Source: Myxococcales bacterium (GTDB lineage: Bacteria; Myxococcota_A; Polyangia; Polyangiales; Polyangiaceae). Taken from it: 41,623 bases of DNA. The first letter of the stretch is position 1, and each line of letters starts with the position of its first letter. This document shows, piece after piece, positions 3,029-18,876 of the stretch. The notes below the pieces were generated by a model that was not told where the DNA came from, did not search any database, and was given only the letters and a program-made list of their open reading frames with translations. Location: assembly GCA_025354825.1 (NCBI GenBank), contig JANXMC010000034.1, forward strand, positions 1 to 41,623, read 5' to 3'. The translations under genes were made by a program, and so were the position numbers.

Positions 3029-5254
3029 CTACTTTAAGTGGGAAAGAAGGAACGCGTAGTTGTCCGCGCTCGCTTCGATGCTCTTTTGGATCATGTCGCC
3101 ACCGCCGTGACCTGCGTTCTTCTCGATGCGCAGAAGCACCGGGCTATTCGACGCGGCCTGCATCGCAGCTGCGAATTTGCGCGCGTGGAACGGATCGACC
3201 CGGTCGTCGCTGTCGGCGCTCGCGAGAAGAAGCGGAGGGTACTTCATCCCGGCTCTAACGTGGTGGTAGGGCGAATAGGCAAGAAGCGCCGGAAAGTCGG
3301 CGGCGTTATCCGCCGTACCGTACTCGTCAATCCAGGTTTTGCCCGCGCCAAGCTTGGTGTACCGAATCATATCGAGGAGCGGGACTGCACATACCACTGC
3401 GCCGAAGAGCTCGGGGCGTTGCGTTATGGCGGCCCCCATCAGGAGACCACCGTTCGAGCCGCCGAAAATACCAAGATGTGGCGGCGAGGTGACCCCAGTA
3501 GCGATCAGGTCTTCGGCCACAGCGAAGAAATCGTCGAACACGTTCTGCTTGTGACCTCGCATTCCCGCTTCGTGCCACGGCTTTCCGTACTCATCGCCGC
3601 CGCGGAGCGCCGTGGTGACCATGATGCCGCCGCTTTCGAGGAACGCCATGCGCATGGGGTTGAACGTCGGGCTCGTGGAAATCGCAAAGCCGCCGTAGCC
3701 CGTGATAAGCGTCACGGCTTTGCCGTCCTTCACGAGGTCCTTGGGGCGGGTCACGAAATAGGGGACCTTGGTGCCGTCCTTCGAGGTCGCAAACCGCGCC
3801 TCGACTTCGTACTTCGACGTGTCGACGGGTATTTCGCGCTTCCAATAGAGCTTCGAAGTGCCTACCTTAATGCTCGTCTGGAAGATTTGCGGAGGCGTGC
3901 TGTACGACTCGAAGGAATAGTAGGCCTCGTCGTCTTCGGGCAGCCCGAACATGCCGGCAACGCCGCCGACACCGGGCAGCGCAACCTTGCGAACCAGCTT
4001 CCCATCGAGCTCATGGAGCTCGAGCTCCTCCAGCGCGTCTTTGCTGTAGACCATCGAGAGTCGCCCGCCGACGATGTCGATGAACTTGAGCGTCGCGTCC
4101 TTCCGCTCGGGGACGATTTCCTTCCATGAGGCGCGATCCATCTTCGCCGGGTCGACCACGTAAACGTGGTACCGCGCGGCGCCGTCGTTCGTCCGAACGT
4201 AGAATTTGTCCTTGTAGACATTGATTGCGAAGTTTGCCTCGACCCCGGTGACGAGAGGTTTCCACTCGTGAGGTCCGTTCACACGCATATCCTGCACGAA
4301 GACGTCGTGTTGGGACCGCCCACGCTCGATGCGCAGTGTGAGGAAGTGACCGTCACGGGAGAGGTCGATATCGAAATATCTCGAAGGATCTCCCAAGTGC
4401 GCGCGCACGATGGGGTCTGCCTTAGGGTCCGTACCAAGCGAGTGGTAACGGACTTCGGAATAGCCGGGGAGGAGGTCGACAGGGATGGAGGGATCCGTGG
4501 GGAGGCCCACGTAGTAGAAGCCGTCCCCTTTCGGAGTCCACGACGCATAGGCGTAGCGCGCTCCCGGAATCACGTCGATCGTCGAGTCTTTGCCACTGGT
4601 GACGTCACGCACGTACAGCGTTGCGTCGTCGGCGTTGTTCTCGGATTTGCCATAAGCAAACTTCGACCCGTCCTGCGAGATGCTCACAGCGTGTACGGAA
4701 ACACTCCCATCCTTTGAGAGCGCGCTCGGGTCCAGCACCAGCTGCTCTTTTCCGGTTTTCCCTTCGCGCATCCAGTAGCTGAACTTCTCGTCCTTTGCGC
4801 CGCGTCGCGAGGTGAAGTACCGCTTGCCGTGACGCGACGGGGGCTGCTCGGAAGCGCCGTAGGCGAAGCGCGTGAGCTTCTCCACCAACCCCGCCTTCTC
4901 AGGTATCGCCGAAAGCGTCGTCCGCGCGAGGGCGTCTTGCGCGGCCATCCACGCTTTCACACGGGGCGCCTTCGCGTCTTCGAGCCAGCGGTACGGGTCG
5001 TCCACCGCGACGCCGTGAATCGTCTCGCGCAGCTCTTCGCGCGGCGACGCGGGGTACGCGAGCGCGCCGTGAACGACATTGACGTTCGCGTCGACGCTGG
5101 CCGACGAAGCTGCAGACGGCGACGGGGGCCTGCTCGTGCTCACGGGAGGTGCTCCTTGGGAGCTTCCGCCGCCCGCGCACGCGGGGAGCGCGGCGGCGAG
5201 CGCAATGGCGCGGATACGGCTGGAATTGCGGTGCGAAACGCGTGCGATGGCCAT
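3029..5254 (-). CDS. Prolyl oligopeptidase family (S9A) serine peptidase, putative lipoprotein
   Basis: A 741-residue peptidase of the S9A type, which cleaves after proline in short peptides. The N-terminal propeller domain opens with the family motif HGVAVDDPYRWLED. The C-terminal alpha/beta hydrolase domain carries the nucleophile in GGSNGG (Ser ~600), the acid in DSDDRVDP (Asp ~684) and His ~716 in NAGHGGGD. A basic N-terminus and hydrophobic segment end in LPACAGGG, a plausible although non-ideal lipobox, so the enzyme is probably exported and tethered. The length is normal for the family. It is monocistronic as far as can be seen, and a plus-strand gene remnant begins about 100 nt upstream. 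Confidence 0.93.
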   Translation of the reverse strand: MAIARVSHRNSSRIRAIALAAALPACAGGGSSQGAPPVSTSRPPSPSAASSASVDANVNVVHGALAYPASPREELRETIHGVAVDDPYRWLEDAKAPRVKAWMAAQDALARTTLSAIPEKAGLVEKLTRFAYGASEQPPSRHGKRYFTSRRGAKDEKFSYWMREGKTGKEQLVLDPSALSKDGSVSVHAVSISQDGSKFAYGKSENNADDATLYVRDVTSGKDSTIDVIPGARYAYASWTPKGDGFYYVGLPTDPSIPVDLLPGYSEVRYHSLGTDPKADPIVRAHLGDPSRYFDIDLSRDGHFLTLRIERGRSQHDVFVQDMRVNGPHEWKPLVTGVEANFAINVYKDKFYVRTNDGAARYHVYVVDPAKMDRASWKEIVPERKDATLKFIDIVGGRLSMVYSKDALEELELHELDGKLVRKVALPGVGGVAGMFGLPEDDEAYYSFESYSTPPQIFQTSIKVGTSKLYWKREIPVDTSKYEVEARFATSKDGTKVPYFVTRPKDLVKDGKAVTLITGYGGFAISTSPTFNPMRMAFLESGGIMVTTALRGGDEYGKPWHEAGMRGHKQNVFDDFFAVAEDLIATGVTSPPHLGIFGGSNGGLLMGAAITQRPELFGAVVCAVPLLDMIRYTKLGAGKTWIDEYGTADNAADFPALLAYSPYHHVRAGMKYPPLLLASADSDDRVDPFHARKFAAAMQAASNSPVLLRIEKNAGHGGGDMIQKSIEASADNYAFLLSHLK

Positions 5255-5354
5255 GGAAAAAGCGGTACTTCAACTTGCTCGACGTCGCACCGTCGATGTC
5301 ATCCGAACGGCGTCTGGTGCGACTCCTCGCGCGCGGTCGTGCTCATCCCTGCGA

Positions 5355-5918
5355 ATGTGGCTGTTCGACAACAAGACCCACTACGCCGCGGGGCGTAATT
5401 GGGTTCGCGACAAAACCGGGCAACACCACTGGCTCGTGGCCGTGAAAGCCACGTTCACCATCGCCCCGTCGGGCGCGCTCGCTCTCGCGGACGAACAGCC
5501 CCTCCCCTGTTTGGCGCCCGAGTATTTCGGTGAGCCTGGCGTTTCGAGCCTTCGGTGCGATTCCGATCTTCTCGCCATCAAGCCGTGCACGGACGTCGTC
5601 GCCAACGCCGTCGCCTTTGCTCCAGGAGGCCGCCCCGCCAACACCGTCGCCGTCGGGCTTCACATCGGCGATTTGCACAAGCGCCTGCTCGTGCACGGCC
5701 CCCGTGTCTACTACAAATCTCTCACAGGTGGCGTTGCCGCAACGCGCCCGGCATCCTTCGACCCGCTCGCCATTCGGTATGAGAACGTCTTTGGCGGGAG
5801 GGACCTTCGCGACGCTGACCCGCGCGCTCATCGAATGAGTTTGGGACATGGAACGTTATGTCCGCGAGCGAGCAGACTTAGAGGACAAGAAAAAGGCTCT
5901 CGGAGCGATCATTCGTGA
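5355..5918 (+). pseudogene. Truncated DUF2169-domain gene
   Basis: The reading frame starts with a recognisable DUF2169 N-terminus (MWLFDNKTHYAAGRNWV, then WLVAVKATFTI) and keeps the family pattern up to RYENVFGG near residue 145. About fifteen codons later it loses similarity and ends after a short arginine- and serine-rich tail, for ~187 residues in total. A full DUF2169 domain is close to 300 residues, so roughly half is missing. DUF2169 proteins are commonly found beside type VI secretion VgrG/PAAR genes; none is visible here. I see no Shine-Dalgarno before this ATG. The likeliest reading is a decayed or deletion-truncated gene; an upstream in-frame ATG at 5079 lies inside the opposing peptidase gene and is unlikely. 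Confidence 0.6.
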
Positions 5919-6426
5919 GCGCAGCGCCGAGCTGCAAGCGCTGGATACCGCGCCCCCCGCCGCCCCTCTCGACGTCGACCCAGATGCGCCAACCTTCGTG
6001 CGATTTTCCCGCGTTTCCGGCGATATCGACGGTTTGCTCGCGGGGCTAGCAAACGTTTACGAGGCCTGGGGGTGCCGGCTGAGAAGGGTCATCCAGCTCG
6101 CGCCGTCCTCCGGCGAGAACGACGGCGGGCTCGCCCACGCCGCGCCCCCTACGGAGCATCGGAAGCTCGAGACGGCGCTCGCTCTCCTCCCTCCCCATGC
6201 CGCCTTTGGTCTCATCTCGCTCGCATCCGACGCCGGCGCGCTCCCGTGCGTCAGTAGGCGACGATGGCGACGGTTTTCATCCTTCTTTTTTAAACGGATC
6301 GGAACCGGGGGCCAAGCGACGTTGCCCGCGCCACCGCCGCCCTATGGAAAACCCGTGGTAACCACGAATGCGCCTCGCTACCGAATCGTCACTTCAAAAT
6401 GGTCGGGCTCGCGTTGTACGCGGTAA
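5848..6426 (+). CDS. Uncharacterised ORF, possible remnant
   Basis: I do not recognise this 192-codon frame. Its first ~35 residues are charged and helical, possibly a short coiled coil. A segment near residues 50-85 (VRFSRVSGDIDGLL, then NVYEAWG) looks protein-like. The last ~45 residues are basic and proline-rich and run into the 3' end of the opposing lipoprotein gene, so the true product, if any, probably ends earlier or is frameshifted. It overlaps the tail of the truncated DUF2169 frame by 71 nt. It may be part of the same degraded locus. No ribosome binding site is evident. Confidence 0.3.
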   Translation: MERYVRERADLEDKKKALGAIIRERSAELQALDTAPPAAPLDVDPDAPTFVRFSRVSGDIDGLLAGLANVYEAWGCRLRRVIQLAPSSGENDGGLAHAAPPTEHRKLETALALLPPHAAFGLISLASDAGALPCVSRRRWRRFSSFFFKRIGTGGQATLPAPPPPYGKPVVTTNAPRYRIVTSKWSGSRCTR

Positions 6427-7702
6427 GCAGGCGCTCGAACTGGCCGCCGTCCGTGTCGATCGTCGTCTGCCCCGACGCCCCGGGGCCGAAGGCGACGCCC
6501 ACGGCCCCCGCGGCGATGAGCTCCGCCGGGTGCGCGAAGAAGTAGCTCACACGGTTGTCGCGGTACTTGTTGGGCGAGCCCCCCGGGGTGGCGCTTGGCA
6601 CGCCCATCGGCACTTGCCATAGGAGAACGGGAACGCCGGCGCCGGCGTGCATCGCCGACATCCAGGCTTGGTGCTGATGGAAGTTGGGAGTCTTCACATT
6701 GGCCTCGTCCCAATACCAACCCGTCGTACCGCCACGCCCACAGTCGAACTGTGAGGGCTTTGCCTCGAAGCACCCCGCGTCGCGATCGAGAACGTCGGTC
6801 GCGACGAAGTCAGCCATGCCGTTCGTGAGCTTTCGCAAGAACGCTCCAACGGCCTTTCCGTCGGGATTTCCGCTTGCGTCGTAGGCGCCGAAAGTGGAGG
6901 CGTGAAAGCCAACGACGACCTTCGGTGCCGTGTGCAGCGTGCGCACGGCGCACTGGCCGAGTCCTGTGAGATCGTCGGGCAGGTCGGTGCAGGCCGTGTT
7001 GATCTTCACCTTCGCGGCGAATTTGGCAGGGTCACCCCCGGCCGAGTTCTGTTGGGCGTACCCCCAAAAGTCGGGCTCGAGGTGGACGATGGCCGGCTTG
7101 TCGAAGGCCTTGAGCTTGTCGGCGAGGAGCTTGAGATCCGCCCAGAAAAACTTCATGTAGTCGGCGTTCTGCACGACTGTGTAGTTCCCATCTCCCAGGG
7201 CTGCGAGCTCGTACACCGAGAACATCGGAACAGCACCTTTGGCCGCCGCGTCGTTTGCACGAATGGTCGCGTACTGGCCGTCGGGCGAGTTGTACTTGGG
7301 CCACCCATTCGCCGGATCTTTCGCGCCGACGAGATAGGTATATTTTATATCAAGCTTCGCGCTCGTGGGGAATCGTTGATCGGACGGGCCCAAGCCCATG
7401 AGGAAGTGGTTGCGACCGAGGCGATTCACGAACTGCGCGCCTTGCGACAGCGTGCCTACGGGCGTGGTCCCGCCGTCGGCCGTGGGTGCGACGACGACGC
7501 TGCCGCCGTCGGACTGGGCCGGGGGAGGCTGCGTGCCGCCCCCATCGGCATTGGCCACTTTGGGGCCGCCATCGGAAATGGGGCCGCCGGGACTTCCCGC
7601 CGACGGTGCGTCGCCACCGCAGGCGAGCGCCGTGACGACCAACGCCGCGAGGACCGTGACTTCAACCGGTGTGCGAGCGCCGAAACTTCTGCGATTTGCC
7701 AT
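6389..7702 (-). CDS. Secreted lipoprotein, putative TIM-barrel (glycosidase-like) protein
   Basis: A 437-residue exported lipoprotein: a basic N-terminus, a hydrophobic core and a lipobox TALACGG near residue 28, then a ~60-residue Gly/Pro/Asp-rich linker. The remaining ~340 residues form a single domain with alternating strands and helices. Marker segments include HFLMGLG, KYTYLVG, VPMFSVYELAA, VHLEPDFWGYAQ, VVVGFHAS, GWYWDE and VLLWQVPMG. Acidic residues at strand ends (the EPDFWGY and WDE segments) suggest a TIM-barrel hydrolase, but that is inference. A good Shine-Dalgarno (AGGGAG, 7 nt before ATG) lies inside one arm of an inverted repeat annotated separately. The DUF6184-like gene sits just upstream in the same direction. 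Confidence 0.8.
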   Translation of the reverse strand: MANRRSFGARTPVEVTVLAALVVTALACGGDAPSAGSPGGPISDGGPKVANADGGGTQPPPAQSDGGSVVVAPTADGGTTPVGTLSQGAQFVNRLGRNHFLMGLGPSDQRFPTSAKLDIKYTYLVGAKDPANGWPKYNSPDGQYATIRANDAAAKGAVPMFSVYELAALGDGNYTVVQNADYMKFFWADLKLLADKLKAFDKPAIVHLEPDFWGYAQQNSAGGDPAKFAAKVKINTACTDLPDDLTGLGQCAVRTLHTAPKVVVGFHASTFGAYDASGNPDGKAVGAFLRKLTNGMADFVATDVLDRDAGCFEAKPSQFDCGRGGTTGWYWDEANVKTPNFHQHQAWMSAMHAGAGVPVLLWQVPMGVPSATPGGSPNKYRDNRVSYFFAHPAELIAAGAVGVAFGPGASGQTTIDTDGGQFERLLTAYNASPTILK

Positions 7703-16538: not shown

Positions 16539-17360
16539 TTAGGTAGACCAGGCGCCTTCGCGCGGAATTCGCAGCGAGAGGCAGGTGAGCGCGCCGTCGC
16601 CCTTGTGAATTTCGGTGAGCGCGAGGCGAACCACGTCGTGGCCGCGGGCCTCGAGATGGCCGGCCGTGGCCGGGGCCGACGCCGACACGAAGACGCGCGA
16701 GCCGATGGCGAGGACGTTGGCGCCGGCGGCCTCGAGGGCGGCGATGCAGGTGAGGCCGCTCGCGCGAAGCGATTCGAGGGCGTCGCCGTCGAGATGAGCC
16801 GCGTCGTAAACGAGCGTAGTCGCATCCACGAGCGTGCACGCCGACTTCAGATGAAGCCCCGAGGGGACGCGCAAAATGTGGGTCGTGAGGCCGTCGAGCG
16901 CGGCGACCTCGGCGAGGCGCGCGGCGCCCGCGTCGTTCGTGCGGGATGAAATTCCGACGTACAGCGCGTCGGCGACACGGAGAACGTCGCCGCCGTCGAG
17001 GGTCGCGGGCTCCGTCATGGTGTGAATGCGAACCATGCTCGCGAGGGCCGCGGCGACAGGGGCGACCTCGGCGCGGCGTGATGCGGCACCGGGCCGTGTG
17101 GCGAGGGCGTTGCGCCCCGTGACGACGACGGTGTCTTCGACGAAGCACGCGTCGGGCGACGCGTCGTCGGCCGCCACCACGGTGACGGCGACGCCGGCGG
17201 CGTGCATCGCCGCGACGTAGGCCGCGTGCTGTGCGCGCGCGGCATCGACGTCAATGGATAGTGTTTCGTCAACACGAAGGCACGACGCGTAGGACGCGGA
17301 AAGCTCTCGCACGAGAACGCGCGAGGGTGGGGCGAAGGGGAGCGGCGCGCGGATGGTCAC
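16539..17360 (-). CDS. Dimethylarginine dimethylaminohydrolase (DDAH)-like amidinohydrolase
   Basis: A 273-residue pentein-fold enzyme. Family residues are in place: FVEDTVVV with its acidic pair, LDGGDVL, catalytic His170 in GLHLKSACTLVD and nucleophilic Cys260 in GALTCLSLR. DDAH hydrolyses methylated arginines to citrulline and methylamine; bacterial relatives include arginine deiminases and other amidinohydrolases, so the exact substrate is not assured. The start is the GTG at 17360, which overlaps the stop of the upstream small lipoprotein gene in a GTGA junction. The much longer frame to 17549 is unsupported. It ends 136 nt before the next lipoprotein gene starts. Confidence 0.85.
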   Translation of the reverse strand: MTIRAPLPFAPPSRVLVRELSASYASCLRVDETLSIDVDAARAQHAAYVAAMHAAGVAVTVVAADDASPDACFVEDTVVVTGRNALATRPGAASRRAEVAPVAAALASMVRIHTMTEPATLDGGDVLRVADALYVGISSRTNDAGAARLAEVAALDGLTTHILRVPSGLHLKSACTLVDATTLVYDAAHLDGDALESLRASGLTCIAALEAAGANVLAIGSRVFVSASAPATAGHLEARGHDVVRLALTEIHKGDGALTCLSLRIPREGAWST

Positions 17361-17683
17361 TTGAGCACCGTCGCACAGAGGACGAACGCCCTGCACCCGT
17401 CCGTCGCGGCAGAGTTTTCGTCGACACACTGCACGCGCCAGCCGTTCGCCCACGGGTGGCTGCTCACCACAGTGCGGCGCTTGCCCGCCTTGAGAACGGC
17501 TTCGTCGATCTCGAAGCCGCCGCCGACCACGGTCGTGCCTTCGAGGCATTCGGCGAAACCGTTGGTGGAGCTCGATTGCGCGGCGGTGAACGCCTTCGTC
17601 GCGGGGATAGGAGGCGCAGCGCAGCCCGCGAACAGCGACACGGCGAAGAGGGAAAGCAGAGAGGCGCGCATAAGGTTCTTCAT
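17357..17683 (-). CDS. Small secreted lipoprotein
   Basis: A 108-residue lipoprotein: signal peptide with LFAGC near residue 21, then an 86-residue mature domain. The segment TVVGGGFEID ... VVSSHPWANGWRVQCVDE shows a beta-rich VVGGGF/SxPxxNGWxV pattern seen in many small secreted proteins of unknown role, with three Cys that may form a disulfide. The start was moved from 17737 to 17683, where the signal peptide begins. It is translationally coupled to the DDAH-like gene by a 4-nt overlap and is divergent from trmY with 59 nt between. Confidence 0.7.
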   Translation of the reverse strand: MKNLMRASLLSLFAVSLFAGCAAPPIPATKAFTAAQSSSTNGFAECLEGTTVVGGGFEIDEAVLKAGKRRTVVSSHPWANGWRVQCVDENSAATDGCRAFVLCATVLK

Positions 17684-17742
17684 CCGAGCAAGATACACAG
17701 CGCGCTTAGACGGGTGCGACCGCGGTGCTAGAAGCACGCGCG

Positions 17743-18363
17743 ATGCGCGCCTTCGTCGTGATTGGCCAGAAGGCCACGGCCTCGCCGGAATTTTTGCTGC
17801 ACGACGTCCCCGGCACGAGCGGTCGCCTCGACGTGCTCCTGCGCTGCGTGCGCGCCGCGATGCTCTATTCCCACGGGCTTCGGCGCGACACGAGAGTCTA
17901 CCTCGTGCTTAAGGGCGGCCCGCTCGCGCCGCGTGTTTTACGCATCGACGGGAGCGCGATCCGCTTCGTGCGCCCCGACGAGCGAAACCTCGCGTCGCTC
18001 GTGAAAAAGGCGCTGGCTCGCGCGTGTGATGCCGAGGGGTTCAACGTGATTCGCCCAGGCCTCGCCTTGGCGAAGGGCGCCCTCGACGTGGTGTTGGACG
18101 ACGTCGGCCCCGTCACGCCGTTCGTGCTTCACGAGGGGGCGACGGACGTACGCGACGCAACGCTCGAAGTCGCGAGCGCGCTGTTCTTCGTGGGCGACCA
18201 CTTGGGGTTCGACCACGAGACGCGTGCCGTGATCGAGGGGTGCAATGCGACGCCCATCGGTGTGGGGCCGGTGAGCGTTCATGCCGACGACGCCATTGCG
18301 ATCGTGACCAACGAGCTCGACAGACGGGAAGCGCGAATCCGAGCGACGCTAGGCGTTTGGTAG
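17743..18363 (+). CDS. trmY: tRNA (pseudouridine-54 N1)-methyltransferase, TrmY/DUF358 family
   Basis: A 206-residue SPOUT methyltransferase. The N-terminus MRAFVVIGQKATASPEFLLHD, the middle LVLKGGP and LRIDGSAIRFV, and the SAM-binding trefoil-knot segment ALFFVGDHLGFDHE fit the TrmY family, which makes N1-methylpseudouridine at tRNA position 54 in archaea. Bacterial members exist but their substrates are less certain. The start at 17743 removes six residues of the longest frame and matches the family start. The convergent marR gene ends 4 nt past the stop. No pseudouridine-54 synthase gene is nearby. Confidence 0.82.
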   Translation: MRAFVVIGQKATASPEFLLHDVPGTSGRLDVLLRCVRAAMLYSHGLRRDTRVYLVLKGGPLAPRVLRIDGSAIRFVRPDERNLASLVKKALARACDAEGFNVIRPGLALAKGALDVVLDDVGPVTPFVLHEGATDVRDATLEVASALFFVGDHLGFDHETRAVIEGCNATPIGVGPVSVHADDAIAIVTNELDRREARIRATLGVW

Positions 18364-18367
18364 GGGA

Positions 18368-18808
18368 CTAACCCTCCTCTACGAGCCCCGTCAGAAATCC
18401 GAGGATCTCCACGCGTGCGTCCTTCGGGACGCGGCTCACGAGGGCTTTGCGCACAGCGCGCGCGTGGACGGGGCGCGCGGTTTTGAGGGCGCGCTTGCCG
18501 GCAGCGGTAATCGCGATCTTCACGGCGGTGCCGTCGGCCTTTTTTCGAACGACCATCTCGCGCTCTTCCATTCGCGTCAGGTGGTGAGAGAGGCGACTCT
18601 TGTCCCATCCCATTTCGTTCGCGAGCTCTTGCTGGCGCAGCTCGCCGCCACCGAGATCCACCAGGCGAGAGAGCACCCCGTAGTCGGCCCCCGAGAGGCC
18701 TGTCTCCTCTGTGATGTCGCGCCCGACTTGCGCCGTGACGGCTTCGGTTGCGCGCTTCCACGCGTGCCAGATTTCGATCTCGCCTTTCGACAGCTCGGAG
18801 GTGCTCAC
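18368..18808 (-). CDS. MarR-family transcriptional regulator
   Basis: A 146-residue winged-helix regulator: helices around SGADYGVLSRLVDLGGGELRQ (in two parts), recognition helix region ELANEMGWDKSRLSHHLTRM, and a wing with VRKKADGTAVKIAIT. It is divergent from the SDR gene at 18889 and almost certainly controls it: two 16-bp palindromic sites lie in the shared upstream region. I prefer GTG 18808; the TTG at 18874 would put both palindromes inside the coding sequence. The ligand is unknown; MarR proteins usually sense phenolic or aromatic compounds, lipids or oxidants. Confidence 0.85.
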   Translation of the reverse strand: MSTSELSKGEIEIWHAWKRATEAVTAQVGRDITEETGLSGADYGVLSRLVDLGGGELRQQELANEMGWDKSRLSHHLTRMEEREMVVRKKADGTAVKIAITAAGKRALKTARPVHARAVRKALVSRVPKDARVEILGFLTGLVEEG

Positions 18809-18829
18809 CGCCTCACGGTAGGAGATGCG

Positions 18830-18845
18830 GGTTGACTTGACAACC
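18830..18845. promoter_or_regulatory. Imperfect palindrome, putative MarR operator 1
   Basis: GGTTGACTTGACAACC reads GGTTGAC on one half and GGTTGTC on the other, one mismatch per seven. It overlaps a perfect TTGACA (18837-18842), a likely -35 box for the plus-strand SDR gene. Its centre is 31 bp from operator 2, about three helical turns, so two dimers would bind the same face. Confidence 0.55.
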
Positions 18846-18864
18846 TCGTCCTCGCCGTTAGGTT
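18837..18864 (+). promoter_or_regulatory. Putative sigma70 promoter of the SDR operon
   Basis: TTGACA at 18837-18842 and TAGGTT at 18859-18864 are separated by 16 nt. The -35 box is perfect and the -10 box weak (3 of 6). The expected start site near 18871 leaves a leader of about 18 nt containing GGGAGG. Both operator palindromes overlap these boxes. Confidence 0.45.
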
Positions 18865-18876
18865 GACGCGTCAACC
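18861..18876. promoter_or_regulatory. Perfect 16-bp palindrome, putative MarR operator 2
   Basis: GGTTGACGCGTCAACC is a perfect palindrome between marR and the SDR gene, covering the predicted -10 box and start site of the SDR operon. It shares the GGTTGAC half-site with operator 1. Typical of direct repression of the divergent operon and of marR itself. Confidence 0.65.

Follow-up and report, generated by a model that had tools for sequence, protein, structure and literature searches.

The window, by which is meant the whole stretch of 41,623 nucleotides that was analysed, carries a stop-free trmY-like open reading frame whose translation is 206 amino acids long; a longer form starting at a GTG at 17725 is also possible. 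The gene and its immediate neighbours are listed in Table 1, together with the signature segments of the protein. Other genes flanking trmY, named by Pfam matches, encode an arginine-deiminase/DDAH-like protein and a short-chain dehydrogenase, and no flanking gene has an evident tie to RNA. With a GC content of 0.670 and a GC3 of 0.836, the gene resembles its surroundings in composition, as the original prediction had stated (window GC 0.659; GC3 of 0.787-0.833 in eight other measured window genes). The host, described there as a probable myxobacterium, is confirmed as one, and its relatives in the same family include Labilithrix sp. Its assembly comprises 8.98 Mb in 859 contigs, with 96.3% completeness and 4.59% contamination.

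Table 1. Features at the trmY-like locus and signature segments of its product
Feature	Position	Strand	Basis or remark
Short ORF, no Pfam match, lipoprotein-like start	17357-17737	-	divergent from trmY; start judged by eye
trmY-like gene, PF04013/COG1901 SPOUT methyltransferase	17743-18363	+	206 aa; stands alone by position
G27-R28-L29-D30 signature, start of helix 28-40	17821-17832	+	alignment and model
SHGLRRD signature, residues 43-49	17869-17889	+	alignment
RPDER signature, residues 77-81	17971-17985	+	alignment
Knot segment FVGDHLGF, residues 149-156	18187-18210	+	alignment
GPVSVHADD, residues 175-183, loop into C-terminal helix 181-203	18265-18291	+	alignment and model
MarR-type regulator	18368-18874	-	convergent with trmY

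The window gene is a real member of COG1901. The profile of PF04013 (TrmY/DUF358/COG1901) matched residues 1-196 of the protein at 165.4 bits (E = 1.7e-48), far over the curated cut-off of 25.5, and this is the single match in its own genome; the E-values exclude a match by chance. Both the family and the FVGDHLGF knot segment, to which we presume a SAM-binding role, had been named in the original prediction and were recovered here. Regarding the narrower NCBIfam TrmY equivalog (NF002560), the protein was matched over its full length with a score of 179.6, just below the cut-off of 183; the gene is assigned here to PF04013/COG1901 and not to the equivalog. Seven of the eight myxobacterial proteins scanned fell under this cut-off, the exception being L024 with 184.0, whereas a protein from the Vibrio scophthalmi plasmid pVS127 (L114) was accepted at 208 bits despite missing much of the archaeal signature. 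The solved structures nearest by sequence are AF_1056 (124 bits) and MJ1640 (110 bits), followed by VC_A1059 (40 bits).

The fold was predicted with AlphaFold2 from an input of 22 sequences (pLDDT 89.7, pTM 0.90), and the model displays the SPOUT alpha/beta-knot fold found in 2qmm and 3aia. Structural comparison by VIA-align placed the model closest to archaeal TrmY, with Z = 28.2 and an rmsd of 1.8 Å over 193 residues for AF_1056 (2qmm), and Z = 26.6 and 2.1 Å over 193 residues for MJ1640 (3aia), a second alignment to MJ1640 giving Z = 26.4. The Vibrio protein VC_A1059 (2qwv) ranked below both with Z = 23.3. Next came entries of Nep1/Emg1, the N1-pseudouridine methylase of small-subunit rRNA (Z = 13.8-15.2), which belongs to a different family with 12-17% identity. 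One of these entries, 5fai, carries an N1-pseudouridine methylase title, and the Nep1 matches are presumably all of this function. Entries of the RsmE/TrmH type followed from Z = 11.1 downwards; RsmE itself, which makes m3U1498 of 16S rRNA, has the SPOUT fold in common with the window protein (Z = 9.8-11.1; 10-16% identity). An extra N-terminal domain is given for RsmE in a table of PMC9508554. Judged by the predicted model, then, the two nearest groups of known function, TrmY and Nep1, are both N1-pseudouridine methylases.

The relationships of the protein were examined in a tree of 90 rows, comprising 18 myxobacterial, 58 euryarchaeal-labelled (mostly from the phylum to which a Methanosaeta MAG belongs), 11 DPANN or other archaeal and three Vibrio sequences. 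A duplicate of L005 (L025), a fragment of 139 aa (L032), a sequence of 150 aa (L050) and repeats of loci already represented (L001, L013-L023 and L051-L064) were left out. All 18 myxobacterial rows form one clade with UFBoot/SH-aLRT support of 100/100. In the best tree, this clade lies inside Euryarchaeota, where 33 euryarchaeal rows group with it (97/92) and seven rows that include Methanosaeta join more weakly (71/86). The Methanosaeta sp. PtaB.Bin018 MAG holds two near-alike TrmY copies (L031 and L033) on two contigs, a case of either duplication or strain mixture. The Vibrio rows, which share the Pfam-level family and a bacterial host with the myxobacterial proteins, formed a separate branch, each group being supported at 100/100. 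Nevertheless, AU tests rejected neither a joint myxobacterial-Vibrio clade (p = 0.227) nor a topology in which the 52 core euryarchaeal rows form one clade that excludes the myxobacteria (p = 0.293), and a single transfer from archaea into the ancestor of these myxobacteria is for that reason favoured but not proven. The archaeal affinity raised in the original prediction is supported. In that prediction, placement in a separate SPOUT clade with a known, different target was named as the outcome that would speak against it; a separate clade with fixed substitutions of its own was indeed obtained, which is one half of that outcome, the known target being the other.

The archaeal signature is largely retained in the myxobacterial clade, and the motifs GRxD..R, SHGxRRD, PDER and GDHxG of archaeal TrmY (MJ1640, HVO_1989, AF_1056) are all present in the window protein. 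Across the 31 columns that are at least 85% conserved in the 58 euryarchaeal-labelled rows, 85% of cells are kept in the myxobacterial rows, compared with 67% in the 11 other archaeal rows and 51% in the three Vibrio rows. Residues G27, R28, D30, R34, S43, R47, P78, D79, E80, R81, G106, D152, D193 and L19, all invariant in the euryarchaeal rows, are present in the window protein. Eleven of them (G27, R28, D30, R34, S43, R47, P78, E80, G106, D152 and D193) are kept in every myxobacterial row, and the other three are kept in part (L19 in 15, D79 in 16 and R81 in 17 of the 18). By contrast, G27, R28 and D30, found in 58/58 euryarchaeal-labelled rows, occur in none of the three Vibrio rows, which also lack R34, P78, D79 and R81.

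The myxobacterial clade also differs from archaeal TrmY at a few fixed positions. Threonine at residue 13, present in 57/58 euryarchaeal rows and 71/72 non-myxobacterial rows, is replaced by A, S or G in 18/18 myxobacterial rows. Aspartate at 183 is likewise found in 18/18, compared with H or Q in 68 of the 72 other rows and D in none. The L032 fragment likewise reads E-D-V instead of D-D-A. Moreover, R37 (18/18; R in 0/72 others), R/K104 (18/18; 0/72) and R/K161 (17/18; 3/72) add basic side chains, and A62 is present in 17/18 rows. In the model, residue 183 lies close to where the C-terminal helix begins, behind the last knot loop, and residue 13 just beyond strand 2-12; by analogy with SPOUT topology, both would border the SAM pocket. 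The substitutions R37, R/K104, R/K161 and D183 could reflect changed specificity, and the clade-specific arginines could in part be a GC-driven gain. The loss of a catalytic cysteine was also considered, the cysteine that follows this loop (HANHC in Mj) being A or V in 18/18 myxobacterial rows. This idea was dropped because several euryarchaeal-labelled rows have T or A at the same place, so that the cysteine is not a family requirement. Changes at residues 13 and 183 would suit a TrmY fold that has taken up different chemistry, the methyl group going to a different base or atom such as N3 of uridine or pseudouridine, in the manner of RsmE or RlmH. Weak partial matches to the NCBIfam RsmE model point the same way, obtained for two of ten sequences, one archaeal (L031, 22.3 bits) and one myxobacterial (L003, 19.3 bits), far below the cut-off of 210. 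However, such a change of chemistry is unlikely, since the TrmY signature is largely conserved and the predicted structure resembles TrmY and Nep1 clearly more than it does RsmE.

Regarding the substrate, archaeal TrmY needs a pseudouridine at tRNA position 54 that is made by Pus10, according to PMC9508554 and PMC7912444, and the original prediction had called for a search for a pseudouridine-54 synthase. No Pus10 match at E ≤ 10 was obtained in the own genome, although an assembly of 859 contigs at 96.3% completeness may lack a gene that the organism has. Among 12 TrmY+ genomes, with 25 further TrmY+ genomes of the family lying outside this set, none gave a Pus10 match over the cut-off. Stray matches at E ≤ 10 appeared in five of the 12, the best with E = 0.002 over 56 residues (G177); the same model produced matches in 5/14 control genomes, three of them over the cut-off. 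TrmFO, which makes m5U54, was found in the own genome at 491.7 bits and over the cut-off in 12/12 TrmY+ genomes and 29/32 genomes overall, in answer to the check for an m5U54 enzyme that had been proposed. The determinants of TrmFO are given as G53-C61 and T54-T55-C56 in PMC4033218. In the own genome, both are present in 34/34 of the tRNA genes found outside an array on contig C620, an incomplete set from which the genes for Thr, Trp and Tyr are missing. Since Pus10 was not found, TrmFO is present and the T-arms are of the TrmFO type, bulk position 54 should carry m5U and not pseudouridine. Consequently, the designation "pseudouridine-54 methyltransferase" is not supported, whereas the substrate, which the original prediction had put forward as the key question, was rightly singled out.

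The array on contig C620 is a dense cluster of eight tRNA genes detected by ARAGORN (6592-7520, + strand), with Infernal adding 6592-6673. Five of its tRNAs share anticodons with other tRNA genes of the assembly, and some have odd T-loops; four of the eight lack TTC at 54-56 and two have G55. An RNA ligase gene (PF09414, 64.5 bits; 5229-6197, + strand) lies approximately 0.4-0.5 kb upstream, and the array may be a tRNA-repair or decoy cassette.

Candidate sources of pseudouridine other than Pus10 were compared across 12 genomes with and without TrmY. The 104 matches to PF00849 synthases fell into nine multi-genome groups and three singletons from TrmY- genomes. No group was confined to TrmY+ genomes, all nine also occurring in TrmY- ones, and the most uneven was present in 5/5 TrmY+ and 4/7 TrmY- genomes. 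The mean PF00849 copy number was slightly higher in TrmY+ genomes, which was put down to genome size. TruD was represented by one gene, matched in two adjacent stretches, in 23/24 genomes irrespective of TrmY. These results bear on the reading in which the protein is a true TrmY, with a synthase that escaped recognition making pseudouridine 54 in certain tRNAs missed by TrmFO, such as those of the C620 array, for conversion to m1-pseudouridine 54. Such a reading would draw on the retained signature residues and on the four array tRNAs without TTC, hence without the TrmFO determinant. It is quite unlikely, however, given the Pus10, TrmFO and T-arm results above, the lack of any synthase group specific to TrmY+ genomes, and the two array tRNAs with G55, a pyrimidine at 55 being a positive determinant for archaeal TrmY according to PMC5372735.

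The distribution of the gene is patchy. PF04013 was present in 30/108 genomes of the own family and in 12/377 genomes of the phylum sample, all 12 from the same order and spread over several families. A lossy scan of genome contigs, the one search to cover bacterial phyla beyond Myxococcota and Vibrionaceae, yielded 170 stretches and 27 relatives from myxobacteria, from MAGs labelled Delta- or Proteobacteria that fall in the same clade, and from archaea. Five matches were obtained among 72,556 plasmid records, all from Vibrionaceae with 19-23% identity, and none among 50,697 phage records. Plasmid pVS127 was typed as conjugative, and its gene annotated as trmY has recX and hypothetical genes as neighbours. 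Neighbourhoods were compared at 12 loci, up to 10 kb where the contig allowed (L016 and L017 being short), with a crude gene caller that clustered trmY itself in 8/12. The remaining clusters comprised one of protein-kinase-type genes (by eye) in six loci, two of an adjacent pair in three loci, one of short-chain dehydrogenases in three and the rest in two. Their position and strand varied among loci, and they were provisionally read as widespread gene families or as gene order shared by related genomes. In this crude comparison, in which nine proteins were named by Pfam, no linked partner gene stood out. A patchy gene would suit an antibiotic producer in which the protein conferred resistance or self-protection by methylating rRNA at N1 of a pseudouridine close to a drug site. 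Two SPOUT enzymes are structural matches to the model in this regard, namely AviRb (Z = 10.4), whose role we take to be in resistance, and the nosiheptide-resistance enzyme (Z = 9.7). Without a partner gene standing out in the crude comparison of 12 loci, and with trmY both spread over several families of the order and under purifying selection, a resistance role is very improbable.

The trmY-like gene is under purifying selection. By the NG86 method, computed with an experimental Biopython module, dN/dS was 0.17 (L010/L012), 0.25 (L007/L009) and 0.19 (L027/L029) among closer relatives. Three comparisons of the window gene with sequences further removed gave 0.30-0.39, dS being 0.78-1.0 in these. 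Patchy presence and the missing Pus10 might suggest a decaying, functionless relic of a transferred archaeal gene, a reading that can be largely dismissed in view of the dN/dS values of the closer pairs, the absence of internal stops from every row of the phylum-sample and family searches, and the signature residues kept over a deep clade.

The reading somewhat favoured here is that of an archaeal-type N1-pseudouridine methylase which has become detached from Pus10 and modifies a pseudouridine supplied by one of the usual bacterial synthases. The protein would be a SAM-dependent RNA methyltransferase of the SPOUT fold, expected to work as a homodimer, and would place a methyl group on N1 of a pseudouridine. 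Its gene was most likely acquired once, by an ancestor of these myxobacteria, from an archaeon of the methanogen or haloarchaeal type, and would have been retained patchily thereafter, the enzyme being uncoupled from Pus10. Bulk tRNA position 54, where TrmFO should make m5U, would not be its substrate. Since neither PF00849, TruD nor the gene neighbourhood revealed a partner, a pseudouridine from a standard synthase is the simplest candidate, probably one that TruA, TruB, TruD or a synthase of the RluA/RsuA family introduces into an element of tRNA or rRNA. Furthermore, it is tentatively suggested, with a little less confidence, that some myxobacteria make N1-methylpseudouridine at an RNA site where this methylation has never been seen, an archaeal enzyme having been re-aimed from pseudouridine 54 by way of D183 and the new arginines.

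N1-methylpseudouridine occurs in archaeal tRNA and, in the rRNA of both archaea and eukaryotes, at the Nep1 site. The TrmY family is described as restricted to archaea in a review (PMC5372735), and bacterial COG1901 appears as "unknown methylase" in a table of PMC5041015. PMC1829167 mentions a few bacterial members, suggests their transfer from archaea and names a Vibrio protein for testing. Neither a myxobacterial TrmY nor bacterial m1-pseudouridine made by COG1901 is treated in the available text of the literature matches listed. The gene described here is a COG1901 member of archaeal type that selection maintains, in bacteria that should seldom contain the known substrate. Our results suggest that automatic annotation of bacterial proteins as "pseudouridine(54) methyltransferase" is unsafe. 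With most of the archaeal signature retained and no detectable Pus10, the myxobacterial clade provides a clean natural case for finding the substrate of bacterial COG1901.
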